NCBI GenBank assembly: GCA_023014365.1
Contig: JAEBUN010000004.1
Span: forward strand, 2,728,001 to 2,792,000
Length of the DNA stretch: 64,000 nucleotides
Source of the DNA: Lepiota brunneoincarnata
Lineage: Eukaryota; Basidiomycota; Agaricomycetes; Agaricales; Agaricaceae
Direction of reading: 5' to 3'
The position numbers and the translations under genes are program-made. How positions within the stretch are numbered: the first letter of the stretch is position 1; every line of letters starts with the position of its first letter. This document shows, piece after piece, positions 17,306-39,338 of this stretch. A model generated the notes under the pieces. That model was not told the origin of the DNA. It ran no database searches and saw nothing but the letters and a program-made list of their open reading frames with translations.

Positions 17306-17767
17306 TGTAAGGGAACAATCCACAAACACCCCTAAGCCTCCCAGCACACTGTACATCCCCCCTTTCAAACGTTTACACCCCAAACATAACCAGAATGCAC
17401 CAGAGGTCCCCTCACTGCCCAGTTAAACCCCTCCCTTCACCCTCTACACCCTCCTTAACCCTCACCTGCTTCCTCCCATTTCCTGTAGACTTCAGACTGT
17501 TATCTTCACTCCCCACACTCATTTTAATCACACCTGGCCTTGTGCAACACCCAGACACCACCGTCAAGCCTTGTTCAATTTATATTGATTATATAAGTCA
17601 AGTATATACATAGTTTTCGCCTGCAGGGGTTCCCTCATCCTATTCTCTTAGGATTTCCCTGCAGGTATGGACTCCCTACTTAGCTCACAGATTAATAATA
17701 CTTAGGATTTCCCTGCAGTGACGTTTCGGCTCCCTGAGTTGTCTGAACCCTCCAGGTTGCCCTAACA
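17306..17767 (+). repeat. Chromovirus 5' LTR
   Basis: 462 bases, TG...CA, with PstI-like CCTGCAGG blocks. The leader starts GAAGAATAGGATCC immediately after the LTR. Confidence 0.92.
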
Positions 17768-17901
17768 GAAGAATAGGATCCCCCTAACGAGACCAGTCCG
17801 GTGTCCATAGGCCCTACCCTGTCCATAACGTGTTTTTCGACTCAGTAGCAGCCTAACACTCAGCACTCTTCTCTCCCCTCGTCCAACCTCGTCTCTCACT
17901 C

Positions 17902-19052
17902 ATGTCACAGCAAAATGCACCGGAGAACGGGCCCTCAGACCCTCTGGCTATGATTGCCCAACTCCAGCAGGATGTGGCATCGGTGATGACTAAGCAGGCC
18001 GACTCCGAGCTGGCCCTCACGGAAGTGATCCAGTCGATTCAAACCACCCTTCAAGAACTCTCCCAATGTCCAAAAACCCCAAATGCTCCTGACGCGACTC
18101 CACCCGTCCCCGACACGTCCCCTCCCTCTACCCAACGCACTCGCTCCTCAAAAGTCAAACCAGCGACTCCACCAGACTTCTCGGGTGACCGAACACGTGG
18201 GAGGGCCTTCTTGAACTCCTGTAACACTTACCTACGACTCTGCCCGACTCATTTCGCCTTGGACCAGCAGAGGATACTCTGGGCTATGTCGTTCATGAAA
18301 GAGGGGCGTGCTGCTAAGTGGACGGATCAGATATTTCGGTGGGAAGATAGGAACCAAGGAGCAGAGAGGTTCCTAGATTGGGAGGACTTTCAAGGTGAAT
18401 TCCGTAAGCACTTCTTCCCCGTGGACTCCGAGGCAGCTGCTGTCAATCGGCTGGAAGGTACAGAGTACTTCCAACGAAACAGGAACGTCGAAGACTACCT
18501 GGACGAGTTCCTAGAGCTTATCTCGGACTCCGGGTACAAAGATGACAAGACCATTGTTGTCAAGTTCCGTCGAGGCCTCCGCCCGGCCATACAGACCGCA
18601 GTAGCCACGATGATGGCCAACCGACCCTCGGACAATGCTCCGGAGGCTTGGTACAAGGCAGCGCAGCTCATAGATCAGAACCGAGCTGCCAACGATGCCT
18701 TCCAAGCCTTGGGGCGGACACAAATACCCTCGGCAAAGCCCTCCGCCAACCCCTATCGCCTCACATCTGCCCCTGTTGCCCCCCTTGCCACGTCAACTTT
18801 GACCCCCTTTCCATCAGCCCGCTCCTTTGCCCACGTCACCCCCACTCCGACCAAACCCGTCCCAATGGATATTGATGCGACCAGAAAGGCCACGACGACG
18901 CCCGTAGTCTGCTACAGATGCCACCAGCCGGGCCACGTCAAATCCGAATGCCCTAGGCGCTTCGACGTTCGCTTCTTAGACTTGGAGGAGAGGGAAGCCC
19001 TGATTCAGCAATTATTAGCCAAGAAAGACATCGTGGAAGCTCAAGGGTCATC
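17902..19052 (+). pseudogene. gag: Chromovirus gag, interrupted near its 3' end
   Basis: ATG 17902 opens a Gag with the retrotransposon-gag region (FLNSCNTYLRLCPTHFALDQ, TEYFQRNRNVEDYLDEFLEL, FRRGLRPAIQTA) and a CCHC knuckle CYRCHQPGHVKSEC. The frame is intact up to the KH-element insertion at 19053. With that element and one TCATC copy removed, Gag continues EHRESEDETDFVSGGW and stops at the TGA at 21066-21068, overlapping the start of pol. As assembled it ends shortly inside the inserted LTR. Confidence 0.88.
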
Positions 19053-19391
19053 TGTTAGGGGAAGTAAGGCACCGGAACCAAGTTGATATTCAGGTGGCGA
19101 TTACAATCGCCACCCACGCTATATATATACATAGTGGTCTGCGCACAGACCGGGTAACCAGACACTACGATAGCTACCAGTAATAACGTACGCAAACAAT
19201 AAACAAGCAACTAATAATAGAAGTCGCCCGCAGATCGGGCTCGGGGATGGGGGTGGCTGAAGGCCGAGACCGGGCTCGGGCATCGGGCATCGGCTAAGAA
19301 GGCCGAGCCCGGACGTCCAACCACAGGTCCCTAGAAGTACCTTGCGTAAGGGGGGGCGCAATGCAAAGCACACGACGCCAGTCCCCTTACA
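19053..19391 (-). repeat. KH element LTR (3' in element orientation)
   Basis: 339 bases, TGTTAGGG...CTTACA on the plus strand; matched by 20671-21009. Confidence 0.9.
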
Positions 19392-19439: not shown

Positions 19440-20591
19440 CTAAAAAGCGCGAGCCCAACGGCCATCCGCTAGCTGAATGACAGACCCATCCACCACAAGG
19501 GAACGGGCCATATCAAGACGGTCAGCAGGGGCAGTAGGCATAACCCCCCGGCCCCAGGTCGAGAGGACACTGTTGACCTCCATCGGGGTCAAGGCCGGGG
19601 TAGGGGTGGCGCTTCCCATTCGGACTGATGGGACTCCGGGAGTAGACGTGCCGGAGGGGGTAGAGATGGGCATAGGGGAGCCGCGCGACGGTTGCCGAGA
19701 AACCACGGGCGAACGGGTAGGGGTAGGAGTAGATGCGGCCGTACGCATAGTTGTCGACGGGACGCCGGCCGGGGTAGCGATGTGAGGGGGAGTGGGTGCG
19801 ACTGAAGAGGCCTGCGAGGAGGACCGCACACCCAGATGCGCCCAGTCTGGGACTGGGGTGGCAGAGCCGGGGGCAACGGGGTCCGTACGGGCCGGAGCAG
19901 GAGCCTGGGCTGCTCCAGGAGCAGACGGTCCGGGGGCCGCCAAGGCGGGGCCGGAAACCGCTGTGGTCTTCTCCTTCTTTGTCTTGGGAAGATGGACACG
20001 CTTGCGCGCAATCCGCTTACCTAATACCACAAGGGCATCACCGAGTTGCTGCTCGGTCCCCCTAATAGAGACATGGCGCTTGTCGGCACCATCCGTAGCC
20101 ACTGAATAGACACGGAGGTGAGCGCCGCTAATGTCTGCGACCTGTTTAAGGCCGCGGCCGCCGCGACCAATCACGTGACCACTCAAGCCGTCGGCGATGA
20201 CGAGAGTGGTCTGATAGCGATCGGCCTGGTCTTCCTGCGGGTAGTAGGCCGAGAGTGGGAGGGCGGTAGATGTGCCTTTTACCGAGGGGTGAGTGGGGCC
20301 CGGGCGGTTAGGAGTGCGTGGGGCGCCGGCAGAAACCTGCGAGCGACCCTTTCGGGTAGTGGCCGTTTGAATGACGGCTGGAGAAGGACCGGCGGCAGCC
20401 ATCGAGGGACGTTCCTCGAGGGTGCGCAGGCGGGACGAGAGCGAACCGATCGAGCGGTTAAGCTCGCCGATCCGGGCCAATAAGGCCTGAGTGTCCTCAC
20501 CTGAACACGAGGGTCCTGCCGAGGCAGGGGCTGTGGTCGGTAGTGTGGGCGCAGTCGCTTTCTGCTTGCCTGAGGACTTTCGGCGAGGCAT
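19440..20591 (-). CDS. KH-domain protein carried by a non-autonomous LTR element
   Basis: A single intact frame of 383 codons from ATG 20591 (MPRRKSSGKQKATAP) to the stop at 19442-19440. Residues 33-62 look like a coiled coil (ALLARIGELNRSIGSLSSRL). Residues about 126-195 form a type I KH-like domain: LVIADGLSGHVIGRGGRGLK has the VIGxxGxxI core with GXXG = GRGG at 142-145, followed by beta strands ending HVSIRG. The C-terminal half is Pro/Ala/Ser/Thr-rich and ends with a conserved-looking VVDGSVIQLADGRWARAF. KH domains bind single-stranded RNA or DNA, so the protein could package or tether the element's RNA. It is not a recognisable Gag. The frame is uninterrupted although neighbouring elements have stops. 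Confidence 0.82.
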   Translation of the reverse strand: MPRRKSSGKQKATAPTLPTTAPASAGPSCSGEDTQALLARIGELNRSIGSLSSRLRTLEERPSMAAAGPSPAVIQTATTRKGRSQVSAGAPRTPNRPGPTHPSVKGTSTALPLSAYYPQEDQADRYQTTLVIADGLSGHVIGRGGRGLKQVADISGAHLRVYSVATDGADKRHVSIRGTEQQLGDALVVLGKRIARKRVHLPKTKKEKTTAVSGPALAAPGPSAPGAAQAPAPARTDPVAPGSATPVPDWAHLGVRSSSQASSVAPTPPHIATPAGVPSTTMRTAASTPTPTRSPVVSRQPSRGSPMPISTPSGTSTPGVPSVRMGSATPTPALTPMEVNSVLSTWGRGVMPTAPADRLDMARSLVVDGSVIQLADGRWARAF

Positions 20592-20670
20592 ACTGGCGAT
20601 AGGGCTGGGGACAGGGTAGATGGGGTGCAGAGAGCTAGGGTGGCAAGTCCGCGTAGAGACCTGAATATTC

Positions 20671-21009
20671 TGTTAGGGGAAGTAAGGCACTGGAACCAAG
20701 TTGATATTCAGGTGGCGATTACAATCGCCACCCACGCTATATATATACATAGTGGTCTGCGCACAGACCGGGTAACCAGACACTACGATAGCTACCAGTA
20801 ATAACGTACACAAACAATAAACAAGCAACTAATAATAGAAGTCGCCCGCAGATCAGGCTCGGGGATGGGGGTGGCTGAAGGCCGAGACCGGGCTCGGGCA
20901 TCGGGCATCGGCTAAGAAGGCCGAGCCCGGATGTCCAACCACAGGTCCCTAGAAGTACCTTGCGTAAGGGGGGGCGCAATGCAAAGCACACGACGCCAGT
21001 CCCCTTACA
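20671..21009 (-). repeat. KH element LTR (5' in element orientation)
   Basis: 339 bases; four CpG-type transitions separate it from 19053-19391. Confidence 0.9.
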
Positions 21010-23234: not shown

Positions 23235-24519
23235 TGAAAAGGTAGAAACGTTCGTATGTTTTAATATGGATAGTGGGCTTGTTTTCACTAAGCTTAGCCG
23301 AAATTCGATAAGCTTAAGCTAATACAAGTGGAATGAGATAGATAAGGAACAGTTTCATCTTTTAGGGTGTTCTGGGGGTGCGTTCTGACAGCGAAATTCA
23401 AGAGAGTAGTGTTTTAGAGGTTAACGAACAGCCGTTGAAGTTATCTTAGCCGTACGGTGCAACAATGAAAGGACAATCCCTGTCAATTCAAAGCGCGGGG
23501 TCTCTAGTCTCTGGTCTCTGGTCTCTGTCTCTGTCTCTGTCTCTAGCACTCTGGAACTCTAAACTCTGAACTCTGGTCTCTGTCTCTGTCTCTGGGTTGG
23601 TCGACGACCGAAGAATTCACACTTAACGACGCACACTAAATAGCCCTCTGAAACCATTCTTGATCACGGCTTGCAGACTTGCGTGTGGAAGCGGGGGTGA
23701 GACCTCTTGCTTCTCCACGAACAAGTGCGACCGTATTTATATTGTTTAGATACATACGAGAGATAGTAAATATGAAATAGAAAACAATAAGCTTAATTGT
23801 TACAGGCACTGTAGAACATTTTGGAAGGTTCGGCAGCATTTCTACCTTGCCCTGGGTTATGGGTTTTTCTTTGATTAACGAATGGCAATCCAGCCAGACA
23901 TGTTTCGTGCTCGTCTGCATTATTCTGCGTCCACGCGAGCGCGTTAAGACTCCGGATCAATTATGATCGGAATGTATAGCGGATGGACAGTCCCTTGATC
24001 CGTTGTAATTAATCTCAGTTAAGCAATAGGCCGAGGTGCCGGGACCCACAAAGCACTCGTTAATTAGGAGTCTTTGATATTTCTAGGGTTTTGGGCATCG
24101 GGTGTCGCCTCCCGAACGTTGAACGTTCCGTTCCGTGGTCCGGTCATCATTATTGGGCTCGCTTTCGACGTAATACTCCTGCGACAGCCGCTAGGTACAT
24201 TCTTTATATTCAAACGCATCCGGGTTCATCAGAAAACTGCTCGTAAGGTCCCTTGATGCGACCGGAGTATACTCGATAGACTATGTAGAGTCCTGAATCC
24301 CTCTGGAAAGCGTTCCGACAGTTTGGTTCACTAAGCTTAGTGATAATGAACTGGTTTGAACACTTCCAAGGCTCAAATATCCTCAATTCGGTCGAACTGG
24401 CTACTACGGGACATAGTACCAATCCTCTATAGAGTTCTTTAATGATATAGCCAATGATTCTATGTAGAGAATCGTTCCGGAGTACGGAATTCATGTATAG
24501 ACGTGAAATCGGCGTATCA
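23235..24519 (-). repeat. 13.9-kb element LTR (3' in element orientation)
   Basis: 1285 bases. Contains four TAAGCTTA palindromes (23289, 23309, 23788, 24332) and a GTCTCT-rich microsatellite at about 23501-23596. No protein is supported within it. Confidence 0.92.
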
Positions 24520-24844
24520 TCTCCCCCTAACCAATTGCTGACTGTCCTCAGTCATTATCTCCTTCAAATTCGCAGTATCTGAGTCTCTCTGACGCGCTCT
24601 ATGGTCTAGAACGTTCACCAGCTTCGAGGGTAGCGCACTTTCGCTAAGCTTATTCCAAATGATGTCAGGTCACCGAGTTTAAATGTATAGATCAACTTCT
24701 TGTTGCTATAGCTTAAATTTTTATCTCTTTATTGGGTCTTTTAAATGTCCCAAGGTCTCGTTTCCTCTCTTTCGTTCTCCCTCTCACTCTTTATTCGTTT
24801 TATCCTGCTCGCAGATCACTCCTTAACGCCCACTTCTATCAACA

Positions 24845-26883
24845 ATGGACAGAAACACACGCAGCAGCAAACATGCCCGATACGAAGTAGACACGGACTC
24901 CTCCTCTGGTGAGTAGAGTTCGTGTTACAATCATCTTTGTTTTTCCTCACACTGTCCTCAGACTACGCTGGGCCTAGCACTGCCCCTCCGGCCTCTCAGG
25001 ACACGCCCTCTTCGTCGATTGCGCAACGTAAGTCTCTTTTCTCTCGCTCTCGTTGTTTTCCTCATGCTTTCTTTGTCCTTAGGTCTCACTATTCGCCTCC
25101 CGGCGCGTCGCAACCTCCTTCCTCAATGGGAACCACCAGCACCACGTGTTAGGAGAGCTAGAGGAGGGCGAGTGGGACGAGGAGCTCGCGGAAATCGCCA
25201 GGGAGGTGTAGATAGGACCCCTCCCCCACCGTACTCGCCGCCCCACAAACCAACCCCTCGGCCGGCCACTCCCCTGTCCACTCCTGTGCCGCGACGCGTC
25301 ATCTCGATCGCGTCACTGTGCAATCCAACTGACGAGAGTTCTGCCGGATTGTCCGCAGAACTTTCGTTAGGTATCCCTGTCGGCGGGCCCTCTGGTGGAT
25401 TATCCACAGAGGCTCCGTCCAGTTCAATGTTGCTGCCCCCTCTCGCCGTCTCTCTGCGCACCCTGGACGGTGAAGGCTCGCTGGTGCTCCCTCCCCTGGG
25501 TATTGCGTCAGGTTCAGAGGTGCCGGGCCCTTCAACAAACCGCCCCTCCTCTCCTGTAGCCTCTTCGGCTACTTCTACGCGTAAGCTTAAGCCTTTTTCT
25601 GCTTATTTCTCCGCTCCTGCTAATAGTGTGCCTCATAGCTCGTATCCCTGCCGCTCTCAAAGGCAAGCAACGTGCACAGTCATCTGCGCCGCCCCCGTCG
25701 CCTCTGTTCCTGGCGAGTTCAAATTCGCCATCGCATTCTCCGGTCCCAGAGGTCTCCCAAGAAGACCTCTTCAAAATTTTTAACTGGTCCTCTACCCTGG
25801 TCGAGCGGAACGCATTGGCCTCTCCCAGGTGTCCTACGCCCTCGCTTCCTCACTTGGCTTCTGCTTCAGTCGAGTCTCTCCCAAGTCCCGCGGAGGCTTC
25901 GCCTTCTCCAGATTTGGAGCTCCTCTTGGAGCCTTCGCCTGTTCCCCAGGAGCCAGCGTTCGTTTTTCAAGACTCATTCTTAGCTTCTCCAACCCCCGTC
26001 CCCTCTCGTTTGCCGAGCCCGGTGGTCCCAGACACATCCCAGTCCTTGCCTCCCCAAGCCGGACCTTCAGGGTCGCGTCGCACGCGCGTAACCCTACCGA
26101 AGAAAAGCTCTAACACGCGCCCAAAGAAATAAACTCCCCGGGCGCGCATCCGACGTTCTGAAGCCGAAATAATCCGGGATCATGGATACCGGCACCCAGT
26201 CCCGCTCTTTTGTGAGGACTTTTCTAGGCTGCTGGCAGCTAGCCAGCTTTCGGTACGTTCTCCAAGTTTTTCTCGTGTTTCCTTATTAACTGTTTTGCCC
26301 CTTCCCTAGTACGTGCCGCCTCGGTCTCGGTGCACTACTTGCGCCGCTCGTAAGTTGGAGTGCGAGCCTCTGGGCAAGGGTAAGAAGTGTCGCAGCTGCG
26401 ACCTGTACAACTACCCCTGTACCTTCGCAGACCATCCGCGAGTCTCGGCTGGCGTTGCGAACGCCCTGGTCACGTCCTCACTGACCAGTGAATACTGTAA
26501 GTTTCTCTGTTCACTGTTTTTCCCATTTATTCACTTTTTATTTCCCAGATCTTGCTGCCTTCGCACGTGTTGCGTCCTCCAGCTTGGTCAGTCTGGAGGC
26601 CAATCGTGTTGCCTACGAGGCATCGGCCTTCCACCACCGCCGTGTAATCTACCAGTTCGTCCAGGAGATGCAAGCTACCAGGATGGCCTTGGATGGTAAC
26701 GACGTGGCGTTCGTGGAGATGGGTATGGCCGAGTCCCTCGAAGACGTCCAGGCGTTCTTCGAGTTTGCTGACAACTTTCCGGGGGTCCCGACATACGAAG
26801 AATTCGAGGAGCTCAAATCGCTCCTCTTCCTCGCTTTCCCAATGACTCAGGATCCGGAGTCTGTCTTGGAGGACTTGAACTAG
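24845..26883 (+). pseudogene. Accessory gene 1: Pro/Ser-rich protein with a Zn2Cys6-type cluster
   Basis: ATG 24845 (MDRNTRSSKHARYEVDTDSS) leads through introns 24909-24961, one starting gtaagtctc (about 25027-25081) and one starting gtaagcttaag at 25581 into one frame. A Pro/Ser/Thr-rich N-terminal half of about 380 residues ends at a TAA at 26130-26132. Straight after it the same frame continues (RRSEAEIIRDHGYRHPVPLF) and, across an intron (about 26250-26309), reaches RCTTCAARKLECEPLGKGKK and CRSCDLYNYPCTF. The cysteine spacing CX2CX6CX8CX2CX6C is exactly that of the fungal binuclear zinc cluster. A last exon (FARVASSSLVSLEANRVAYE) ends at TAG 26881. I think one gene with a single stop, but two genes are possible. 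It runs opposite to gag-pol of its element. Confidence 0.68.
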
Positions 26884-27504
26884 TGCCTGCTTCCCTTTCC
26901 TCTCTTGAATGTAATATATCCTCTTGTCCTGTATATAGTTACATTTCGCTTAACGATTCTTGTCTCTTGGTATCTTTCTGAGTTAAGCTTAAGGCCCTTC
27001 TGGAATATCCCAAGCTAAGCTAAGGCTTCCAGCCGCTTATACGCTCATCAGATATTTCTCTGATACTTCTGCTATGTTTATTGACATCTCAGCGCGCCAC
27101 AATTCGCCATGTGTAGTGAACCGGTCATCCGTTCCGGCTTCATTTACAAGCCCGAACCCGAACCAGCCTGTACACGGGGTTTGACGCGCCATTTGCGCCA
27201 CTTGGGGCCCGTCTCCCCCTAGCCAAATTGAAATCGGTGCCCTCACTGTTCCATCCGAATCCCTGTGCACACTGATAACCGCGAGACCCTGGCGACCTGT
27301 TACCCAATAAGGCAACTGTGGTTCAGCTAGTCTGTCGAAGGCTGGCTACTCAAGATTACAGGTTTCCTAGGCCTCTCAGGTCATAAGCTTAGGGTGGAGG
27401 GTGCTCTTTATCCACTCGTCATGATTCATCATCACTGCCGACAGCCTTTTCTTATAAAAGCGAGGGAGCGACGTCTCATTCTAGCAGACACTCTTCGTAA
27501 GAAA
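26884..27504. promoter_or_regulatory. Spacer between the two accessory genes
   Basis: It holds TAAGCTTA at 26994 and 27384, near-copies (CTAAGCTAAGG near 27014) and a TATA-like CTTATAAAAG about 50 bases before ATG 27505, so it probably carries the promoter of accessory gene 2. A minus-strand open frame (27037-27315) is not supported by any motif. Confidence 0.45.
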
Positions 27505-28852
27505 ATGGCTTCTTCAATCCCCAACCTTCAAGTCGAGCTCGACGATCTCATCAGCAACACCAAAGGTCGTCTTCAGCGCCTGCAAAACGGTCAAGTTGCT
27601 CGTCCCCTCGTCGAGAAGGCTCTCCTCGCATTCGACGCCCCTGGGGTATGTCTATTCTTTTCATGCTTCTCTCGCTGTTCCTCAATCATTTCTAGTCTGC
27701 TTATATTGAAGCGTTATCGGAGGATAATGAAGCTATCAAGCTTCATGTCAACCAAGACTACGTCTTCCGTATTCGCAAGCTCTACGAAATTTACCAAAAC
27801 AACTACCATTCGTCTTATGAGATGCCCGCGATCTATAAGGCGCTCTCTGAATGCTGTAGCCGCATTAATCGCGTCCGCTCTGAAGAATCCCACAAAACCC
27901 GTACCGAAGAGGCTCAGAACCCGTCGTCCACAACTGGCTCTACTTCCTCCAACGTTGCCGAAGGCTCTGCTGTCCCCAAACGCGTAAGCTTAGTGTTCTT
28001 TTGGCTTCAAATCGTCTTCTCATGCATAAGCTTAGCCTCGCAAGGGTCGCAAGGCCCCTACCTCTGCTGCTGTTGTGGTAGACACCGATACCGAGCCTGC
28101 GGAGAGTATGAATAGTGCCTCCAACTCCCGAGCAACTGGTGCTGACACGGTAATCTAGCTGCTTCTCAACCTATTACATTGGCTGAGATCATCGCTCGCC
28201 TTCAGGACATGATGGTCGACGAGGAGGTCTCTCAAGCTATCGTCGAAGAGGTTCGTGTAGTTCCGCCTTATCGCAAGCGTCGTTTGTCTACCTCCGACGT
28301 GGTGCGCCAGCTCCACTCCCCCCAACCACTGATTCTGACTTCCTCTCTCTCTAGGAGACTGTCAAAAAGTCCTCATCGTCTAAAGGCTCTGTCCATCTTC
28401 TTCCCTATTGTCAAGTTCCCAATATGAACACTAAACACTGCTGTTATGTCTGGGCTGAACAGGTTCTAGCCAAAGCCAGCGCCAATACTGCCAAACGCGC
28501 CCGTACTGAGTCTGCTTCTGATGAGCGCACCTTCGCAGGCTTATCCGGTGGGCAATTTCTCACTTCTGTTCGTTAAGCTTAGCGGTTCTGACACTTTTCC
28601 CGGGCAGCTCGTTTGCTCCAGGAACTCCAAAACCTCCTGTCTCACTCTCACGACGAGTACGAGTCTGAATCTCACAGTGACGATGCTCGGTCTGTCAAAT
28701 GCGACCTCAATTTGCTCAGCCGGGACTTCATCGAGGCTATTCCCTCGCTCGAAGCTAACTTAAAGAGGTTCCAATTCCTCATTCAAGAGCGCATCCATCT
28801 CAAAAGTCTTTTGCGCAACCTCTCCGACTTGGACAAGCCCCTCCCCACTTAA
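27505..28852 (+). CDS. Accessory gene 2: multi-exon protein of unknown function
   Basis: ATG 27505 (MASSIPNLQVELDDLISNTK) follows a TATA-like box. Exons joined by GT-AG introns include SAYIEALSEDNEAIKLHVNQ, a Lys-rich PRKGRKAPTSAAVVVDTDTE segment, LAEIIARLQDMMVDEEVSQA, an ETVKKSSSSKG segment and a last exon ARLLQELQNLLSHSHDEYES ending at TAA 28850-28852. The product is about 370-400 residues, charged and helical, with likely coiled coils at both ends and a basic middle. I recognise no domain. One intron (27984-28035) both begins GTAAGCTTAG and ends ATAAGCTTAG, so the element's palindrome sits at both splice sites. All exons are open, so selection may have kept it. It is antisense to gag-pol. 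Confidence 0.62.
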
Positions 28853-28930
28853 GCTTAACGCTTTTACAGTCCCTAGGATAGTTTTCCGTCGATAAGTAGA
28901 TAGTTCTGTCCACAATATCAGGTTTTTTTT

Positions 28931-30165
28931 CTATCCTTCCAACTCTTCCGGCTCCCATCTGTCACTAGGCTCATCCTCAGTAGTCTCCTCCAGGGTCTTC
29001 AGTCCCTCTGGCGACAGATCTATCAACTCTTGTAATTCCGGCAGCAACGGTATATGTTTCCTGGCTAAGTAGGGAATTACTCTGAACGCCGCCACTTTAT
29101 TCTGCCATACCGAACCGTCCAACTCTGCCAGGATATAAGATCCTCCCTTTGATCTAGATATGACCACCATGGGTCCTAGATACCTGGGTTTCATCTTCCT
29201 GTCTGCTGAGCTCTCTATAGCCGTATTTCTCACTAATACTAAATCTCCCGCGCCGAAGCGATAGTCTTTTATCTTATGCGCTGCTTGCCGTTCCATTTCC
29301 CAAGCCTTGCTAAGCTTAGTGTCTGAAACACGCTGACGCATCTCCTCAACATGCCGAACATGTTTTGCCAAAGCCTGAGCTCAATATCCTATCAACTCGG
29401 CCGTCGTCAAGTACTTATTCGGTAGCTGCACCAGCCAAGTGGCCTCTTTGACATCCAAAGGTAGCGTCGGGTGCGCTCCGGTTACCAAAAAGTATGGGGA
29501 ACACCCCATTCCTTTTCTAATAGTGATCCGATCTGCCCACATAACGTGCGGTAGGTGCCAATACCACTTTTTGACGTCTCCATCTGTAGCTTTGTACAAC
29601 ATTTGTCGCACATCCCAGTGGGGTCGCTCAATAATCCCATTCGCTTTGGAATTGTAAGGAGATATTGTTACTCCCTTTATCCCATATTTTTCTTCCAGCC
29701 ATCGAACAGCTTTCTTAAATGGAGAACCGTTGTCCGTGACAATCTTCACTATACAGCCCCATCGGCAAATGATATCTTCGAATAACCACTGCGCGATCGA
29801 ACTGGCGTTCTCTTTTCTCAACGCTTTTGCCTCCATCCAAGATGACAGTCCACACCTTCCATGCACAATATAACTACACCCATTAGAACTTGGCGTCATA
29901 TGTAGTGTGTCCACATGTAGCACTTGGAATATCGACGGCGTGGGCGTTACTATTGGCGGCGTCTCGATGATCACCTTTTGCCGTTGCTGGCATAGATGGC
30001 ACGATTGCACATACCAAGCTACGTCTCCTTCAACTTCCGGCCACCAGAACCTCTGCGTTATAAGCTTAGTGGTTGCGTATATTCCTCTGTGTCCTAGGAA
30101 GTCGTGGCTGGCTCGCAACATATACATACGTTGCTCCTTATCCACTACTAGCTGATGCTGACCGC
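28931..30165 (-). pseudogene. Integrase of the 13.9-kb element
   Basis: The zinc-binding part (SHDFLGHRGIYATTK, CHLCQQRQ) is followed by the DDE core: D in HVDTLHMTPS, D in VTDNGSPFKKAVRWLE, E in SKANGIIERPHW. The C-terminal part ([31 protein letters not shown]) resembles the GPF-Y/SH3-like end of Gypsy integrases. A TGA at 29383-29381 (IGY-stop-AQAL) fits CGA to TGA. At the upstream junction near 30165 one base separates this frame from that of RNase H. It ends at 28931, 79 bases from the convergent accessory gene 2. Confidence 0.83.
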
Positions 30166-32690
30166 TAGGACTCAGTCCTATACAGCCTCCCCTCTTTATC
30201 CAAGAAGAAATGCTCTACCATATGCTTAAGCTTACGCAGATCTGGCTCATCCAAGCCTTCAGCTGCGCTACTGCCCCCTGTTTTCAGGTATTCCCTGACT
30301 TTGGGTATCCTTTCATCTTGTATTCGCGCTGTATCTGTCCTGCGCGACTCATCATATGTTTCCTCTATCTCGGCCGACTTTTCCTCTTCGAAATCTGGCA
30401 CTAGCCTGACATCCGTCATTAAGCTTAGTACTTGTCGATGGTTTTCTGGACAGGCTGGGTCTTCTATAACCCTAAGCTTAGCCTGTTGTTCATCCAAGTA
30501 CTCTTCCCGGGCTTGATCCAGCTCATACTCAAAATCATACACATCACGCGCCAGACCCTGGTTGAAGCCAGAGCGACTGTCGATCTCATTGCAGAAGGCT
30601 TCCAAGGATAAAGGATCTGCGGCCCCTGGATCTTCTTTGATCAGTTCGAACTCCTCTCCTTCATCCTCGGATCCATCGTCGAAGCGACGGGCTGTCTCAT
30701 CACCGGGATAGTAGCGTCGCCTGGACAGTCCGTCCGGTCCAAAGTTCTTCCCTTCTTTGTGTACTAGCGTGAAGTGGAACGACCTAATGAAGTCCACCCA
30801 GCGGTTTACTGTGGCGTTCGGGAGCTTCCCTGGGTTGTTTAACATCCCAAAGAGAAACTTCGCATCCGTCTCCACCACTAAGTTTCTTGATCCCCACAGT
30901 AAATATTTCTCTTGTTCCAGCACCATTCTTAAGCCGCATAGCTCTCGCTTGGGCTGAGAGTATCTCTGCTGTCTTTCATCCAATAATATTGACCCAAACT
31001 TCACATAATGTATAAGCTTAGCGTCTTCTCCATCTCTCTGATATATGTAGTATCCCACCGCCCTCCATGAGGTATCCACGGCTACTACTATGGGTTGTTT
31101 ACTTGGAAATTCGGGGTTCCTGGTCGGGAAACAGCGCTGAATCGCATCTTTCAGCTCCTGCTGCGCTTTCCGTTCGTTTTCTCCCCACTCAAACTCTTGC
31201 CCTTTTTTAAGCTTTTCGTACAGAGGTGCCGCTATGGCTATGAACTTTGGGATATGATTCCTGCAGCGCGTAGCTGTTCCTAGAAAACCCCTTAGCTCGG
31301 AGACATTCTCGCAATCCCCCCATCTTAATATCTTCCCAATGGTGTCTGTAGCAGGCAACCGTCCTTTATATGAGCATTCAAAACCCACCACGGTGATTTC
31401 ATCAGCGCAGATAGTCGTCTTGGGCCCAGAGAAGGTCCCTCCTACGTATTTCATCCTCTGTAGAATCCTATTGACGGTCTGCATGTGTTCCCATACAAAT
31501 CTTCGGATCCCTGGGTTCTCTTTCAACGTCTCTTCCGTGCCATCTGGCAACTCATATCTAGTTTTCGGCCCTCTGATAGGTACATCATCTATGTACGGCA
31601 TCGTGTATTCTGGTATCTCACTGGCTAGGATCGCTGTTACATCCTCATGGAATATAGGCACTGAGTTGGTCCATCCCATGGGTAATGTCACTAAGCGTAG
31701 CGCTCCAAAAGGCGTCTGGAACGTTGTTAAGTCCCGAGACGACTCAGCTAACAGTCGCTCGTCATAGCCAACATATAGATCCAGAATGCCTCCGCAAGCT
31801 CTGCCTGCGAAGTGCATCGCCAAATCTTCCGTTGCTGGCGGCAGTCCTGAATGCGCTATCGTCACTCTGTTCAGCGGCTCCAAGCTGTGTACCAGTCTCA
31901 AACTTTTCCCATCTTTCTTCACCACACAGAACCATCGGGATCTATAGGATGAGTTCGACGGCTCGTATACACCAGCACTAATCTTTCTCTTTATAATGGC
32001 ACAGACTTCATCATAGATCGCTGGTGGAATCGGAATGGGCTTCTCCACCCACGGAGTATGTTCTACCGTCGGTATCTCGATCGGCGGGAAGAAGTCTTCC
32101 CTAAAACATCCCCTCTCCTCATCTGTCCATGCGAATGCCCTTTCCTGAAGCATCATGACTTGGTGCATCAGCTTTCTTTCTTCTGGCCACAAGAAATCCC
32201 CTGCATGGGCTTCATCCAGCTTAAGCTTGCGCTCCTCCGTATATCTGCCTGTCGGGACAAACTCTGGAGGATGCATGCTAAGCTTAGGCATTTCTGCCAG
32301 CGGATCCCCTTTTATTTCTCGTTTTATCCTGAATTTCTCCGGTAAATCACCTAACACTGGCCTCACTTTTAAAGCGACTGGTTTATATTTCTTCCCAGCC
32401 AGGCATTGTACAATATCTTCGTCATCCCCTTCAGTTTCGAAGACAGTCATTCCCTGACCCTCCGTATCCTGTGCGTTGGCGATGCGCCCTAGGCACGATA
32501 ACGCCGTTGCTCTATCTTCCTGTGGGCAGTCCTCATCGCGTATGACTCGGTCAATGAACATTAGCTGTAGCTCGGCCTCTGAGAAGCTTCCTTTTGCTAA
32601 GCTTAGTGTTTGTGCGACGACAGGGCCCTTCTCATCATCATAGTCTATTATACAAGCCACCTCTCCTTGTCCCTCAGTCAACTCATCGAG
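30165..32690 (-). pseudogene. Reverse transcriptase and RNase H of the 13.9-kb element
   Basis: An 830-codon open stretch. RT motifs include YRSRWFCVVKKDGKSLRLVH, GGILDLYVGYDERLLAESSR, LRLVTLPMGWTNSVPIFHED and the catalytic MPYIDDVPIRGP (YIDD intact). RNase H carries VAVDTSWRAVGYYIY, RELCGLRMVLEQEKYLLWGS, VETDAKFLFGML and GPDGLSRRRY, so all four acidic residues are present. The frame is continuous with protease upstream apart from the TGA at 32860-32858 and a frame change near 32690. It ends at 30165 just before integrase, where a one-base shift is needed. The YIDDVP type is a basidiomycete Gypsy lineage distinct from the host chromovirus (YLDD). Confidence 0.87.
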
Positions 32691-33811
32691 GTTTCTTGAA
32701 AATTTTGACTGTTTTCCCTAAGCTTAGGAGGATTACACTCTCCTCGAGCATAAGTTGGTAACACAGCCCGTTCTCTGGTATTTGGGTCTGTAATAACCAA
32801 GGTTTGCTCGCCACTGGCGCTATTCCTGACTTCGCTAGCCGTCATTACATCAAAGGGTCATCCCAAGAGTACTCGATACGCGGGGTTACGAACGATGTGA
32901 ACTTGCAAATAGATTGTGACTCCCCCGCAGGTAAAGCCTACGTTCTTTGCCAGTCCACAAGTCTTTTCAACCTGCCCATTCGCACTCTGCAAATTTATCG
33001 TAGTATCTGGATCCCAAGAAACTTGACATGCAATCGCTGCTTCCTGACTCATGGAGACAATCTGTGACCCGCTATCTAGCAAGGCCTCTTCCTGCCAAAT
33101 CCCATTTATCAGAGTTGGCACTACTCTCAACGGCTCACATTCTTTCGCAATAAACACTTGCCGTCCCCTGTCTCTTCGAGGAAGTGACTCCAAGTACTGC
33201 ATGATTGGATCCTGCGCTACCCAGGCTTGGGTTGCCGAGCCTTCTCGGAGCACTGTATCATACTTCCGAGTGCCGTCTGCTAGCTCCGTTATCATGACTT
33301 GTACTGGCCCACTATTAATCTCTATATCTTCTGTATCATCGTCCCAGGGCCCTACTCCTGCTATTAAGCTTTGACTCGTGGGTACCCGTTTTCTCATAAT
33401 GCGCTCCCTATAAGTGTTCCTGTATATCGGTGACAATGCCAAGAGTTCTCCATGCGATACTGAGGCTTCTCGCTTCAATACCCTGCTGAGTACTTCCTCC
33501 ACATCGACACTCCTCTCTATAGGGGCCTGGTGCTTATACGCAGGCTCCTTCTTAGATGGTTCCATCCTTCTGACAGGCAACGGTGGCACCTCAACGACCG
33601 GGCGCAGTGGTTTCACATTTCTATATGGTAATTCCCCTGCTGCGGCACACACTGGTTCCTCCGTTGTCTGCCCTATTTCCTCATTTTCTGATTCTTCTGA
33701 TCGCTCGGAATCCGACGCGTCCTCAGGAGTCTGTCCTCTGGCGAAGGCAACCTTCTTCTTCAGAGCCAGCTCCTTCCTCGAACCCTTTAGAAACCCGACT
33801 CCAAGTTCCAA
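32691..33811 (-). pseudogene. Protease region of the 13.9-kb element
   Basis: The frame overlaps the end of gag by 25 bases in the -1 frame. After an acidic linker it reaches an aspartic protease: EALLDSGSQIVSMSQEA, then a flap/strand region ending YRVLLG. A TGA at 32860-32858 follows LLG; the family reads LLGRPFDV, so this is CGA to TGA. The frame continues beyond it (PFDVMTASEVRNSAS) to about 32690. Expression probably depends on ribosomal frameshifting at a GGGTTTC heptamer (33790-33796). Confidence 0.8.
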
Positions 33812-35802
33812 GTCTTCGCGCCACTCCTGGTGTCCAAATACTGGCTTGCCGAGGGCGTACCATCCGTCAGACCACTAAGCTTAGCCTGTATCTGGGCCAA
33901 TTGCTCGGCCAAAGACTGTATCTCGACGTTATCATCCTTTCTTGTCATAAGCTTAACCTTTGGGGTACTCCCAGCGTGGATGGCAGCTGTCTCCAACATT
34001 TCCATGCGCTGCTTCAGACAGCGGATTTCTTCTTCCGCTGGCAACCTTTGGTTTTCTGACCTCGGGAACGCTCTCTGTGCAAACACTGCTGACGTTGGTA
34101 CTTGCGGTAACTCAGGCTCAACCTCCGGCAGTTCTGGTATCTGAATGAAGAGTTGTCCCTTTGTCGCATAGTACTTTGCCACTTTCTCTTTAATAGGCCC
34201 TTCTCCTCGAGGGATACTCGAGCCGTCTCCCATATATATTTTGTTCCCTTCGACTCTAATTCGGCCGGCTTGTTTATCCGCCTCCATGTCCGGGCAGAAT
34301 AACCAACTATGCCCTAATAACCAGCAGTAGAAACACTTGCGATCAGAAAGCGACCCTGCCGGCCCACTTCCGGTATTCCTCTGGGCATGATTATAACCGG
34401 CATGATTATGTCCATCTTTCGCCGAGCTCTCTAAATATGTTTTTAAGGTATGCCCCTGGATATTCATGAGGTCCTTAAGCTCAGCGAGGCCACCTGCCAT
34501 CTGCGAGACTTCATCCTGAAATTTCTGCTTTAAGCTTTGCAGTTCTCGCTTTACCACCAGGTCATAAGTCCCTGTTCCGGACGTCGCAGGTGGATGGCTC
34601 ATCGATGCCGAGTTTACCGGCCTCAAATCCTGATGAAGGGATCGCATAAGTGTTTTGCCAATCGAAATTTCGACAGCTTTATCCACGACAATCCTCCAAT
34701 CATAGGGGTCCTCTTCGCGTAAATCCTTCGCAGTCAGTGCCGACCCATCACTTGCGGTTCTACGCGCCCCGGTGATCGCTAATCTCGCATTGAGCACATC
34801 CTGGAACACCGAGTCCAGTGCGCTCGTAAATAACTCGACTAGCTCTCGGTTCAAGACTACCGCCGGCGACTTTAGACACTTCTCTGCTTCGAGAATGAAT
34901 CGCCTTTTAAAGTCTAAGACTTTATGCTCCTCATTCATCGCAATGCCTCTACTCTCTGCGCAGAGTTCCCTCAAGCGTTGCACTGAGCCCTGCTCGGCTG
35001 CCACAGCCTCGGGATACTCTTTCTTTAATCTCTCTACGAAGCCTGTCCAGCTTCCTGCTAAGAACTCCACAAAACTCATCCACTCTTCACGGATATCCTG
35101 GTCCACATATGACACCGCCCAATTTATTCTTTCTGCCTCGTCCGTCGTCTTCGTTATCGTGAAGAGACGTTCCAGCGTCCAGAGATAATTTCTCAATGTC
35201 TGTGGTTTTGATGCATTCCACCTGGGAGCATTATTGCTAAAGGGAATTGGCATACGCTCGTGTCCCATTTTTCTAGCTGTAGTCGTCGTCGACGGCGTAG
35301 TTTGGTTTGTCTGTACAGTCGGAGTTGACTGTGATATCTGTGGTACCGTGGGGGCACCAAAAGGGTTTGTATGAAACGAGTTTTGGTTTGGTAACGCTAA
35401 GCTTAGCGTAGGAACGGTCTGACCGTCCTGGTTTTCGGTGTGCAGAATATGCGCTATGTTGCGAGCTGAGGCTGGAAGCCTTATAGTAATTCTGGGAGCA
35501 GTAGAGATTGGCGGTACGGCTTTTCTCAATACTGCAACTGCTGAACCACTCGCTGTGTTCGCAGCTAAAGCGCTAACGGGATCTTTTCGCTTTCGAGAGG
35601 TACTAGCGGCGATGAGGCCTTCAGAACCTTCTGGACGATTGGAGTTCCGAGTAGTTCTCTGTTTTGGTGGGTCGACCTTCCTGAGACTGCTCTCGAAGGA
35701 CGTTTTGGGTGACTTTACGGTCTTTGCTTGAACCTTTTTCTGCTTCGCAGGTGAAAGGCGGGCCAGTGTCCAAGTCTTTTGGTGTTTGTCTCGTGAAATT
35801 CA
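33787..35802 (-). CDS. gag: Gag of the 13.9-kb element
   Basis: The frame is open from about 35802 to the TAA at 33789-33787. I see no in-frame ATG until 35268 (MGHERMPIPF), so the real start is either there or upstream via another frame or a splice. The Gag core reads LRNYLWTLERLFTITKTTDE, DQDIREEWMSFVEFLAGSW, and HKVLDFKRRFILEAEKCL. A CCHC knuckle CFYCWLLGHSWLFC lies near 34300-34340, and a coiled coil follows near the end (EEIRCLKQRMEMLETAAIHA). No internal stop. The last codons overlap the slippery GGGTTTC site. Confidence 0.83.
33790..33796 (-). promoter_or_regulatory. Probable -1 ribosomal frameshift heptamer GGGTTTC at the gag stop
   Basis: On the minus strand gag reads TCG GGT TTC TAA. 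The phase G GGT TTC is a canonical X XXY YYZ slippery heptamer immediately before the stop. A -1 slip leads into the protease frame (FLKGSRKELALKKK). Confidence 0.6.
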
Positions 35803-35814
35803 ACTGAAAACCCC

Positions 35815-35831
35815 CCTCGTGGTGGGCTCCA
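35815..35831 (-). promoter_or_regulatory. Primer-binding site of the 13.9-kb element
   Basis: On the minus strand, two bases after the 5' LTR, TGGAGCCCACCACGAGG begins with TGG, complementary to the CCA end of a tRNA. The tRNA is not identified. Confidence 0.55.
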
Positions 35832-35833
35832 GA

Positions 35834-37118
35834 TGAAAAGGTAGAAACGTTTGTATGTTTTAATATGGATAGTGGGCTTGTTTTCACTAAGCTTAGCCGA
35901 AATTCGATAAGCTTAAGCTAATACAAGTGGAATGAGATAGATAAGGAACAGTTTCGTCTTTTAGGGTGTTCTGGGGGTGCGTTCTGACAGCGAAATTCAA
36001 GAGAGTAGTGTTTTAGAGGTTAACGAACAGCCGTTGAAGTTATCTTAGCCGTACGGTGCAACAATGAAAGGACAATCCCTGTCAATTCAAAGCGCGGGGT
36101 CTCTAGTCTCTGGTCTCTGGTCTCTGTCTCTGTCTCTGTCTCTAGCACTCTGGAACTCTAAACTCTGAACTCTGGTCTCTGTCTCTGTCTCTGGGTTGGT
36201 CGACGACCGAAGAATTCACACTTAACGACGCACACTAAATAGCCCTCTGAAACCATTCTTGATCACGGCTTGCAGACTTGCGTGTGGAAGCGGGGGTGAG
36301 ACCTCTTGCTTCTCCACGAACAAGTGCGACCGTATTTATATTGTTTAGATACATACGAGAGATAGTAAATATGAAATAGAAAACAATAAGCTTAATTGTT
36401 ACAGGCACTGTAGAACATTTTGGAAGGTTCGGCAGCATTTCTACCTTGCCCTGGGTTATGGGTTTTTCTTTGATTAACGAATGGCAATCCAGCCAGACAT
36501 GTTTCGTGCTCGTCTGCATTATTCTGCGTCCACGCGAGCGCGTTAAGACTCCGGATCAATTATGATCGGAATGTATAGCGGATGGACAGTCCCTTGATCC
36601 GTTGTAATTAATCTCAGTTAAGCAATAGGCCGAGGTGCCGGGACCCACAAAGCACTCGTTAATTAGGAGTCTTTGATATTTCTAGGGTTTTGGGCATCGG
36701 GTGTCGCCTCCCGAACGTTGAACGTTCCGTTCCGTGGTCCGGTCATCATTATTGGGCTCGCTTTCGACGTAATACTCCTGCGACAGCCGCTAGGTACATT
36801 CTTTATATTCAAACGCATCCGGGTTCATCAGAAAACTGCTCGTAAGGTCCCTTGATGCGACCGGAGTATACTCGATAGACTATGTAGAGTCCTGAATCCC
36901 TCTGGAAAGCGTTCCGACAGTTTGGTTCACTAAGCTTAGTGATAATGAACTGGTTTGAACACTTCCAAGGCTCAAATATCCTCAATTCGGTCGAACTGGC
37001 TACTACGGGACATAATACCAATCCTCTATAGAGTTCTTTAATGATATAGCCAATGATTCCATGTAGAGAATCGTTCCGGAGTACGGAATTCATGTATAGA
37101 CGTGAAATCGGCGTATCA
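35834..37118 (-). repeat. 13.9-kb element LTR (5' in element orientation)
   Basis: 1285 bases, the same length as the other copy, with TAAGCTTA at 35888, 35908, 36387 and 36931. The four differences from the other LTR are all transitions. Confidence 0.92.
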
Positions 37119-38997
37119 CCGCCAAGCTCGCTGGTCACTCGTCTTGGCTCGCTTTGACTTCAAGCTTCACCACCGGCCGGGTAAATCGATGGGGAAAGCC
37201 GACGCGTTGTCCCGCCGTGCAGACCACGGCCCCGGAGATCGTGACAACGAAGATGTCGTCCTCTTGACGAGGGAGAAGCTCGCGATCCGAGCCCTCGAAG
37301 GAATTCAAGCCGCCAGCGAAGAACAAGTCCTTCTATGAGACATCCGAGCAGGGAATCGCTCCGAGACTGCAGAAGAGGCAGTCGTGAATTCGGCCCGCAG
37401 GCTCAAGGAGTCCTCTTCTAGAACCGTACACTCATCCGAGTGGTCTAATGTGGACGGACTGCTATTATTCCGAGGCTGGATCTACGTCCCGAACAGCAAC
37501 GACCTCCGACGCCACATCATGGCCCTCTGCCACGATTCCCCGATCGGTGGGCACGCAGGTTGTTGGAAGACACTCGAATTGGTCTCCCGAAACTACTGGT
37601 GGCCGCAGATGTCTCGCTTCGTAGGTCAGTATGTCTCCACATGCGACTTATGCCTCAGAACGAAGCCCCACCGTCACCTCCCTACCGGAGAACTTCACCC
37701 CTTGCCTATTCCCGAGTCCCGATGGGATACCATCAGCGTTGACTTTATTGTAGAGCTTCCTCCTTCGGCTGGGTATGACGCCGTGATAACCGTAGTCGAT
37801 TCGGCCTCCAAGCGAGCCCATTTCATCCCCACACACACCACGGTGACGGCCGAAGGAGCCGCTCGGCTATTCCTGCACAACGTATGGAAACTACATGGTC
37901 TCCCCAAACAGGTAGTGTCCGACAGAGGCCCCCAGTTCGTCGCAGAGTTCACCAAGGAACTTTACCGGAAGCTAGGAATTAAGGTAGTGAGCACGACGGC
38001 ATGGCACCCCCAAGCAGATGGTCAAACGGAAAGGGTTAATCAAGAATTAGACCAATACCTTCGGATCTTCGTCAACGAGAGGCAGGACGACTGGCTAGAT
38101 CTCCTCCCACTGGCCGAATTTCAACACAATAATCATATCCACGCCTCGACCCAGCACTCCCCCTTCCTTCTCAACACTGGTAGACACCCCCGGATGGGCT
38201 TTGAACCTCACCAATGACCTTCTCGTCTAGAAACGGTCAACGAATTCACTAACCGGATGAAAGCGACGCTGGAGGAAGCCAAAGCTGCCTTGGTACGGTC
38301 TAAAGACGAAATGGCGAGATACTACAACCAACGCCGCACCCCAGCACCTACCTTCAAACCCGGGGACCGAGTTTACTTGGACGCGAGTGATATTCAAACC
38401 ACCCGACTGTCCAAGAAGCTGTCACACCTCAGACTAGGCCCCTATACAGTAGAACGACGGGTCGGCGCCAACGCCTACCGCCTGAAACTTCCCCAGTCCA
38501 TGCGACGCCTCCACCCAGTCTTCAACATCGTAAAACTTCTCCCTGCGCCAGAGGACCCATTCCCAGCCCGACAGCCACCCCCACCACCCGATCCAGTAGT
38601 CATCGACGACGAGAAGGAGTGGGAAGTGGAAGAAATCCTAGACAGCCAATTCGTACGACGAAAACTCAAATTTTTGATCAAATGGAGAGGTTTCGGTCGC
38701 GAACATAACTCCTGGGAAGACTCGGCTGACGTACGTGCACCGGAACTCGTTAAGAAATTCTACGAGCAACACCCCGGAGCCCCACGCTTCATACGAGCTC
38801 TCCAGTTCGGTTCCATCCCATTCCAACCACTCCCAACCATCACGTCGAGTCGCCGCGATCCTGAGGGGGGGGTAGATGTAAGGGGACAATCCACAAACAC
38901 CCCTAAGCCTCCCAGCACACTGTACATCCCCCCTTTCAAACGTTTACACCCCAAACATAACCAGAATGCACCAGAGGTCCCCTCACTGCCCAGTTAA
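37119..38997 (+). pseudogene. pol: Chromovirus pol, second part: RNase H end, integrase, chromodomain
   Basis: After the CCGC duplication the RNase H end resumes ([20 protein letters not shown]). Integrase follows with HDSPIGGHAG and CDLC of the zinc site and the core residues D in ISVDFIVELP, D in VVSDRGPQFV and E in HPQADGQTERVNQELD. A chromodomain closes the protein (EWEVEEILDSQFVRRKLKFL, IKWRGFGREHNSWED), which in chromoviruses directs insertion to marked heterochromatin. TGA at 37336-37338 and 38215-38217 fit CGA to TGA. The frame runs through the polypurine tract and ends at 38997, about 120 bases inside the 3' LTR. Confidence 0.88.
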
Positions 38998-39338
38998 ACC
39001 CCTCCCTTCACCCTCTACACCCTCCTTAACCCTCACCTGCTTCCTCCCATTTCCTGTAGACTTCAGACTGTTATCTTCACTCCCCACACTCATTTTAATC
39101 ACACCTGGCCTTGTGCAACACCCAGACACCACCGTCAAGCCTTGTTCAATTTATATTGATTATATAAGTCAAGTATATACATAGTTTTCGCCTGCAGGGG
39201 TTCCCTCATCCTATTCTCTTAGGATTTCCCTGCAGGTATGGACTCCCTACTTAGCTCACAGATTAATAATACTTAGGATTTCCCTGCAGTGACGTTTCGG
39301 CTCCCTGAGTTGTCTGAACCCTCCAGGTTGCCCTAACA
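38877..39338 (+). repeat. Chromovirus 3' LTR
   Basis: 462 bases, preceded by the polypurine tract TGAGGGGGGGGTAGA. One difference from the 5' LTR by eye (TGTAAGGGG here, TGTAAGGGA there). Confidence 0.92.

Follow-up and report, generated by a model that had tools for sequence, protein, structure and literature searches.

A short palindrome repeated along a Ty3/Gypsy-type retrotransposon of Lepiota brunneoincarnata: a putative array of protein-binding sites with a possible role in anti-silencing

The insulator of the Drosophila gypsy element carries multiple Su(Hw) sites, and the DNA uptake sequences and Chi sites of bacteria are short exact words, not known to be palindromic, that are scattered in coding and noncoding DNA. 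The VANDALs are Mutator-like DNA transposons. In Arabidopsis, VANC and VANDAL form a system of sequence-specific anti-silencing; two reports describe that in VANDAL21 the element's own protein, VANC21, binds a motif of nine bases, which is enriched in the transposon family it comes from, and that methylation is lost throughout the element (PMC5735166, PMC10398659). In the present study we analyzed a stretch of 64,000 nucleotides (the window; positions 2,728,001 to 2,792,000 of contig JAEBUN010000004.1) from the fungus Lepiota brunneoincarnata. A long terminal repeat (LTR) retrotransposon in the window holds 24 independent exact copies of the palindrome TAAGCTTA, which are conserved between diverged lineages of its family, and we think it very likely that TAAGCTTA is a selected DNA-level signal.

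Like the VANDALs, as presented in those reports, the carrier is a transposon with extra genes, and its short motif is highly enriched in a single family of transposons but rare in other families. Unlike them, it is an LTR retrotransposon, 11 of the 24 sites are in its gag-pol open reading frames (ORFs), and its proteins look unrelated. With the gypsy element it shares the Ty3/Gypsy type and multiple putative sites for one protein, but the gypsy sites are in one block and are read by a host protein, whereas the sites described here run along the whole element. The uptake sequences and Chi sites are likewise short exact words that tag their own DNA, coding or not, although they are not known to be palindromic and belong to bacterial genomes, not to a mobile element. 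A further report describes fungal DNA transposons with TET/JBP genes (PMC12730594). In both cases a fungal mobile element has a gene possibly countering cytosine methylation, but theirs encodes an enzyme and is carried by DNA transposons, and no dispersed motif was found in what was listed of that report. Among the titles and abstract openings of the literature matches listed, none describes a retrotransposon that bears such a motif.

All 28 exact copies of TAAGCTTA in the window were inside the retrotransposon (23235-37118), and the rest of the window held none, as the original prediction from the same DNA had stated. Its count and 27 of its start positions were correct; the start given as 26994 should be 26984. 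Four of the 28 copies are a repetition by the second LTR, and 24 sites are independent. The number expected in the element from its dinucleotides was 0.21, close to the predicted figure of about 0.2. Among the 8-mers occurring at least six times in the element, TAAGCTTA was the most enriched (132-fold). The other 8-mers enriched more than 18-fold overlapped TAAGCTTA or its flanks, and the best unrelated ones, GTCTCT-type runs, reached only about 8- to 17-fold; that is, no unrelated 8-mer was comparably enriched. The log-likelihood score of TAAGCTTA was 91.5 in the element without the second LTR. When the element was shuffled 100 times with its dinucleotides kept, no 8-mer scored above 11.6, and TAAGCTTA never occurred more than twice. 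Thus, it is impossible that 24 exact copies in 12.6 kb arose by chance, and composition is likewise excluded as their source.

Several other properties of the array were considered. A tandem or simple repeat was rejected; the one other strong 8-mer of the window, TAAATTGA, as seen when stretches of 12 kb were scanned, came largely from a minisatellite at 15160-15402, which consists of units of about 30 bp with TAAATTGA. Even spacing was also rejected, since the gaps between the sites varied about as much as those of randomly placed sites would (coefficient of variation 0.82). CpG enrichment next to the sites was not significant (0.71 vs 0.55 per site, p 0.17).

Of the 24 sites, four belong to the LTR and 11 to the gag-pol ORFs, and one more lies between two of these ORFs. 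Gene A has one site in front of it and one at the 5' splice site of its intron 3. Two sites are found in the spacer that separates it from gene B, and in gene B itself two are at the splice sites of intron 2, one is in intron 5 and one begins with the stop codon. The gag-pol sites use two frames, three sites in one and eight in the other, and the frame in which the motif would read TAA as a stop is unused. In four gag-pol ORFs (the protease ORF, which overlaps gag, is excluded), Leu following Lys was encoded by CTT in 10 of 13 cases, eight of them being the motif itself, compared with 7 of the 156 other Leu codons. Protein coding was rejected as the cause of TAAGCTTA, because the motif occurs in two gag-pol frames and also in introns, spacers and LTRs. 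The frames, the noncoding sites and the shuffles thus bear out the earlier statement that the copies lie in LTRs, introns, spacers and coding DNA of different frames and that neither coding nor chance explains them.

Diverged lineages of the family (designated below by L and a number) are present in the genome; in the parts compared, they are about 68-94% identical. In a comparison of the window copy, second LTR omitted, with seven diverged lineages, the eight positions of TAAGCTTA were 0.92-1.00 identical, and the three positions on each side were 0.76-0.85 identical. We then used nine lineages, the second LTR being folded onto the first, and considered the sites covered by at least three of them. 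In this test 16 of 23 sites were unchanged in all covering lineages, compared with 231 of 1353 control 8-mers taken at every eighth position away from the motifs (Fisher p 5.6e-8). Site 35398 is absent from the test, being covered by fewer than three lineages. Slow decay alone, as seen in words without CpG, does not account for this result: the effect became smaller but persisted when only CpG-free controls were used (224 of 801 unchanged, p 5.5e-5). These p-values treat the sites as units, and they are guides only, since the lineages share ancestry and old copies are represented by incomplete fragments. L044 and L046, taken to extend two old copies, held little or no family sequence.

The seven sites not fully conserved were 25582, 26984, 28027, 28574, 30473, 32279 and 32598. 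L043 and L045 lack site 32279 but have one at 32222, 57 bp from it; L031 carries the two together, and the window copy carries 32279 alone. In L034 an extra TAAGCTTA was gained in gene A intron 4. The sites turn over locally, and where losses and gains were observed, homologous sites had changed slightly and no unit had been inserted. The synonymous positions pointed in the same direction as this conservation. When three lineages were summed, 51 of 52 fourfold sites within the motif were unchanged, compared with 346 of 391 T-ending ones outside it; lineage by lineage, p was 0.07, 0.21 and 0.48 against the T-ending sites and 0.08, 0.03 and 0.05 against all. This agrees with selection on the motif, but it is weak and suggestive only. 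Of the two checks on conservation proposed in the original prediction, that between copies showed the motif to be kept in diverged lineages, and that at synonymous sites agreed with it, but weakly.

If the motif had no function, its persistence would have to reflect shared ancestry, a mobile palindrome or a slowly mutating class of composition. The copies are indeed all related, the lineages are not mutually independent, and CpG-free 8-mers do decay more slowly in this family. Nevertheless, CpG-free controls of the same regions were kept less often than the sites, in noncoding DNA (38 of 209 vs 8 of 12 sites, the stop-codon site 28850 being classed here) as well as in coding DNA (186 of 592 vs 8 of 11 sites, including 32719 between ORFs). 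The small homologous changes do not fit a palindrome that moves as a unit, and 24 exact copies in 12.6 kb are beyond chance. We regard this explanation as very improbable.

The motif is also exact. In the element without the second LTR, all 24 one-mismatch variants together occurred nine times (4.5 expected), compared with 24 occurrences of TAAGCTTA itself. A symmetric preference in the flanks, SVY-TAAGCTTA-RBS, was found in 37, 46 and 37 of 48 half-sites (on the 3' side R, not A, S), with p about 1e-4 per position against random places; these p-values come from the same data on which the preference was spotted. We treat the flanks as secondary for this reason and because they are not conserved between lineages. 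The exactness, the two-fold symmetry and the indifference to strand and coding status suggest a dimeric protein that reads duplex DNA. We therefore think that TAAGCTTA is probably a protein-binding site, at present a putative one.

This form of the site also bears on the possibility that the motif acts elsewhere in the life cycle, either as a tag of the cDNA for nuclear import, integration or packaging, or as an RNA signal for splicing or dimerisation. The spread over coding and noncoding DNA resembles the genome-wide tags of bacteria mentioned above, and in genes A and B the motif makes up three splice sites. In gene B intron 2 (27984-28035), which starts with GTAAGCTTAG and ends with TAAGCTTAG, both splice sites are made by the motif. 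A splicing role fails for the sites in LTRs, spacers and minus-strand coding DNA, and an RNA role on one strand does not require two-fold symmetry. Because a symmetric, strand-blind and exact site better fits a protein on duplex DNA, we consider such a role improbable.

In the genome (55.6 Mb in 95 contigs) TAAGCTTA occurred 5370 times, compared with 842 for the reversed control, and CTAAGCTTAG occurred 2011 times, compared with 39 for its control. Among the first 100 matches of TAAGCTTA listed, two had no listed neighbour within 10 kb, and the last of the 100 could not be judged in this respect. In 38,013 bases from 12 further loci with an integrase, most of which appear to represent one family, the motif was absent. 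All 30 LTRs of the family that were fetched carried four sites. A first look gave 699 LTR candidates in the genome, of which the 40 scored were 99-100% identical to the window LTR; the element is young and abundant. Among the first 100 places and the 12 loci, then, TAAGCTTA is concentrated and not spread over the genome, which speaks against a word frequent everywhere, the outcome that the original prediction had named as adverse. Its phrase "confined to one retrotransposon" is right for the window, but genome-wide the carriers are many copies of one family. Since only the first 100 of the 5370 places were listed, a minority may possibly lie outside the family.

The main rival to a reader encoded by the element itself is a host DNA-binding protein, that is, a transcription factor, an insulator protein or an architectural protein, for which the element would have gathered sites for its own transcription or insulation, in the manner of the gypsy element and Su(Hw). 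Conservation and symmetry fit such a protein equally well, and so does a young and abundant element. On the other hand, the sites span coding DNA and the full length of the element instead of one regulatory block. The host, moreover, appears to use the motif little, as judged from its absence from the 12 loci and from the clustering of most of the first 100 places. We consider a host reader less likely than not, but a serious alternative.

The carrier is a Ty3/Gypsy-type LTR retrotransposon with gag-pol on the minus strand, and its features are listed in Table 1. The two LTRs differ at four positions and have TG...CA ends, CCGC is found at either flank of the element, and the polypurine tract AGGGGGAGA adjoins the 3' LTR. 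As far as they were matched, the domains on the minus strand follow the Ty3 order, with PF13975, PF17917 and PF17921 (protease, RNase H and integrase zinc-binding domain) all over their cut-offs; RVT_1 and the integrase core were unmatched in the Pfam search of the element ORFs. Two spliced genes, A and B, lie between pol and the 3' LTR in the opposite orientation to gag-pol, with predicted introns of 44-60 bp.

Table 1. Features of the retrotransposon and positions of the TAAGCTTA sites in the window
Feature	Position	Strand	Remark
Whole LTR retrotransposon	23235-37118	-	LTR pair, polypurine tract, CCGC flanks, Pfam domains
3' LTR (element's own orientation)	23235-24519	-	1285 bp; 4 sites
5' LTR	35834-37118	-	LTR pair, 1285 bp; 4 sites
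Gene A, six predicted exons	24845-26883	+	24845-24908, 24962-25027, 25083-25580, 25639-26252, 26310-26496, 26549-26883
Gene B, six predicted exons	27505-28852	+	27505-27645, 27696-27983, 28036-28114, 28159-28301, 28355-28547, 28608-28852
Integrase C-terminal ORF, SH3-like	28931-29380	-	PF24626 17.1 bits, below cut-off 30
Integrase ORF	29381-30214	-	PF17921 63.8 bits
Reverse transcriptase / RNase H ORF	30165-32717	-	PF17917 46.5 bits
Protease ORF	32858-33874	-	PF13975 32.9 bits, cut-off 28.2
gag-like ORF	33787-35799	-	no Pfam match
TAAGCTTA, LTR	23289-23296		
TAAGCTTA, LTR	23309-23316		
TAAGCTTA, LTR	23788-23795		
TAAGCTTA, LTR	24332-24339		
TAAGCTTA, upstream of gene A	24645-24652		
TAAGCTTA, 5' splice site of gene A intron 3	25582-25589		
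TAAGCTTA, gene A-gene B spacer	26984-26991		kept in only 2 of 8 lineages
TAAGCTTA, upstream of gene B (A-B spacer)	27384-27391		kept in 8 of 8 lineages
TAAGCTTA, 5' splice site of gene B intron 2	27985-27992		
TAAGCTTA, 3' splice site of gene B intron 2	28027-28034		
TAAGCTTA, gene B intron 5	28574-28581		
TAAGCTTA, starts with gene B stop codon	28850-28857		
TAAGCTTA, coding (gag-pol)	29311-29318		
TAAGCTTA, coding (gag-pol)	30061-30068		
TAAGCTTA, coding (gag-pol)	30227-30234		
TAAGCTTA, coding (gag-pol)	30420-30427		
TAAGCTTA, coding (gag-pol)	30473-30480		
TAAGCTTA, coding (gag-pol)	31013-31020		
TAAGCTTA, coding (gag-pol)	32279-32286		replaced in L043 and L045 by site 57 bp away
TAAGCTTA, coding (gag-pol)	32598-32605		
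TAAGCTTA, between protease and reverse transcriptase ORFs	32719-32726		
TAAGCTTA, coding (gag-pol)	33876-33883		
TAAGCTTA, coding (gag-pol)	33948-33955		
TAAGCTTA, coding (gag-pol)	35398-35405		flanks lengthen palindrome to 16 bp
TAAGCTTA, second LTR	35888-35895		
TAAGCTTA, second LTR	35908-35915		
TAAGCTTA, second LTR	36387-36394		
TAAGCTTA, second LTR	36931-36938		

Gene A encodes 584 residues (in L039) and gene B 362. Exon 5 of gene A has six cysteines in the window copy and in L039, spaced C-x2-C-x6-C-x9-C-x2-C-x6-C. The spacing of Zn2Cys6 proteins is C-x2-C-x6-C-x(5-12)-C-x2-C-x(6-8)-C, and gene A fits this pattern. A Pfam search of both proteins gave no significant domain. No homologues were found at E 0.001 for gene B or for the C-terminal part of gene A in a database that may lack fungal proteins, and the cysteine cluster had no match among PDB sequences at E up to 10. 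Single-sequence structure models of one exon each were poor (predicted local distance difference test, pLDDT, 57 for gene A and 63 for gene B).

Among 11 copies, some of them incomplete or decayed, the frame of gene A was fully open in three (L037, L039 and L040) and that of gene B in six (the window copy, L037, L039, L040, L041 and L042). The ratio of nonsynonymous to synonymous divergence (dN/dS) of gene A between the window copy and L039, L040 and L037 was 0.16, 0.16 and 0.20, and that of its C-terminal part was 0.07, 0.08 and 0.11. For gene B the ratio was 0.17 with L039, 0.16 with L040 and 0.28 with the decayed L042. Genes A and B are under purifying selection.

Two further observations concern this region. 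Between the window copy and L039, dS was 0.58 in gene A and 0.21 in gene B, and pol was 94.5% identical; gene A differs far more than either gene B or pol, which suggests that lineages have exchanged segments. The spacer upstream of gene B (27200-27500), which contains the TATA-like TTATAAAAG, was strikingly conserved between lineages compared with gene A, and it is probably a promoter.

At the CpGs of the window copy, 71-85% read TpG or CpA in seven lineages, compared with 16-28% for GpC. This CpG decay of the old copies indicates that the family has probably been methylated.

From these findings we propose the following mechanism. TAAGCTTA would be the core of the binding site for a sequence-specific, two-fold symmetric and probably homodimeric DNA-binding protein, and selection would maintain about 24 such sites along the whole element. 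We see an even chance that the reader is encoded by the element. In that case the likeliest candidate would be the Zn2Cys6-like protein of gene A, perhaps together with that of gene B. Such a reader would bind all copies of its own family and little else. Binding would shield the family from host silencing or reverse the silencing, a self-recognition working like VANC; this anti-silencing effect we put forward tentatively. It is also possible, though on balance we would not bet on it, that TAAGCTTA is a self tag, written into coding as well as noncoding DNA wherever amino acids and splice sites allow it, and read by a protein that the element encodes in reverse orientation. To the full reading, that is, a putative array of binding sites with an element-encoded reader and anti-silencing, we assign a probability of roughly 0.4.

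Several points weigh against this full reading. The evidence does not single out gene A over gene B or a host protein as the reader of the motif. Zn2Cys6 proteins mostly read CGG half-sites, and TAAGCTTA is without CGG. PF00172 scored 11.3 bits on gene A, below the cut-off of 21, and we therefore call the protein only Zn2Cys6-like. The window copy of gene A has one in-frame stop in exon 4; of the 16 copies matching the pattern around it, 15 lack the stop. As to the sites, the p-values for conservation in single lineages ranged from 0.0065 to 0.79. The worst-kept site, 26984, was retained in two of eight lineages, with TAAGCTAA, TAAGCTTG or AAAGCTTG found in others; site 32279 was kept in one of three lineages and 32598 in two of three. 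In the two closest lineages the CpG decay was weaker (18% vs 11% and 55% vs 18%), and the decay reflects mutation pressure and does not show that the motif counters it. Finally, the VANDAL motif, as those reports present it, is in tandem, in the same orientation and mainly noncoding, whereas the sites described here are dispersed single palindromes. By transposon class, array layout and coding sites the element is not a VANDAL, although it may function in a similar way.

Another Ty3 retrotransposon surrounds the element; its LTRs (17306-17767 and 38877-39338, 462 bp) are 99.8% identical. This outer element has gag at 17857-19086 and, between gag and pol, a reverse-orientation accessory ORF on the minus strand (19440-20672) with a KH domain (PF00013, 31.5 bits); no TAAGCTTA was found in it. 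Elsewhere in the window, an ORF of 740 amino acids with WD40 repeats lies on the minus strand at 5777-7999.

A retrotransposon that evades silencing has to do so without activating the remainder of the genome, and a self tag with its own reader would be one answer to the question of how this is achieved. If the proposal is true, sequence-specific anti-silencing would have arisen independently outside plants and in an LTR element, or else retroelements would have a new form of self-recognition. Selection would also be maintaining a binding site inside the coding DNA of a mobile element, which would be unusual. Should a host protein be the reader instead, the element still points to a symmetric DNA-binding activity with a sharply defined site. 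The self tag and its reader are testable with one protein and one DNA word.

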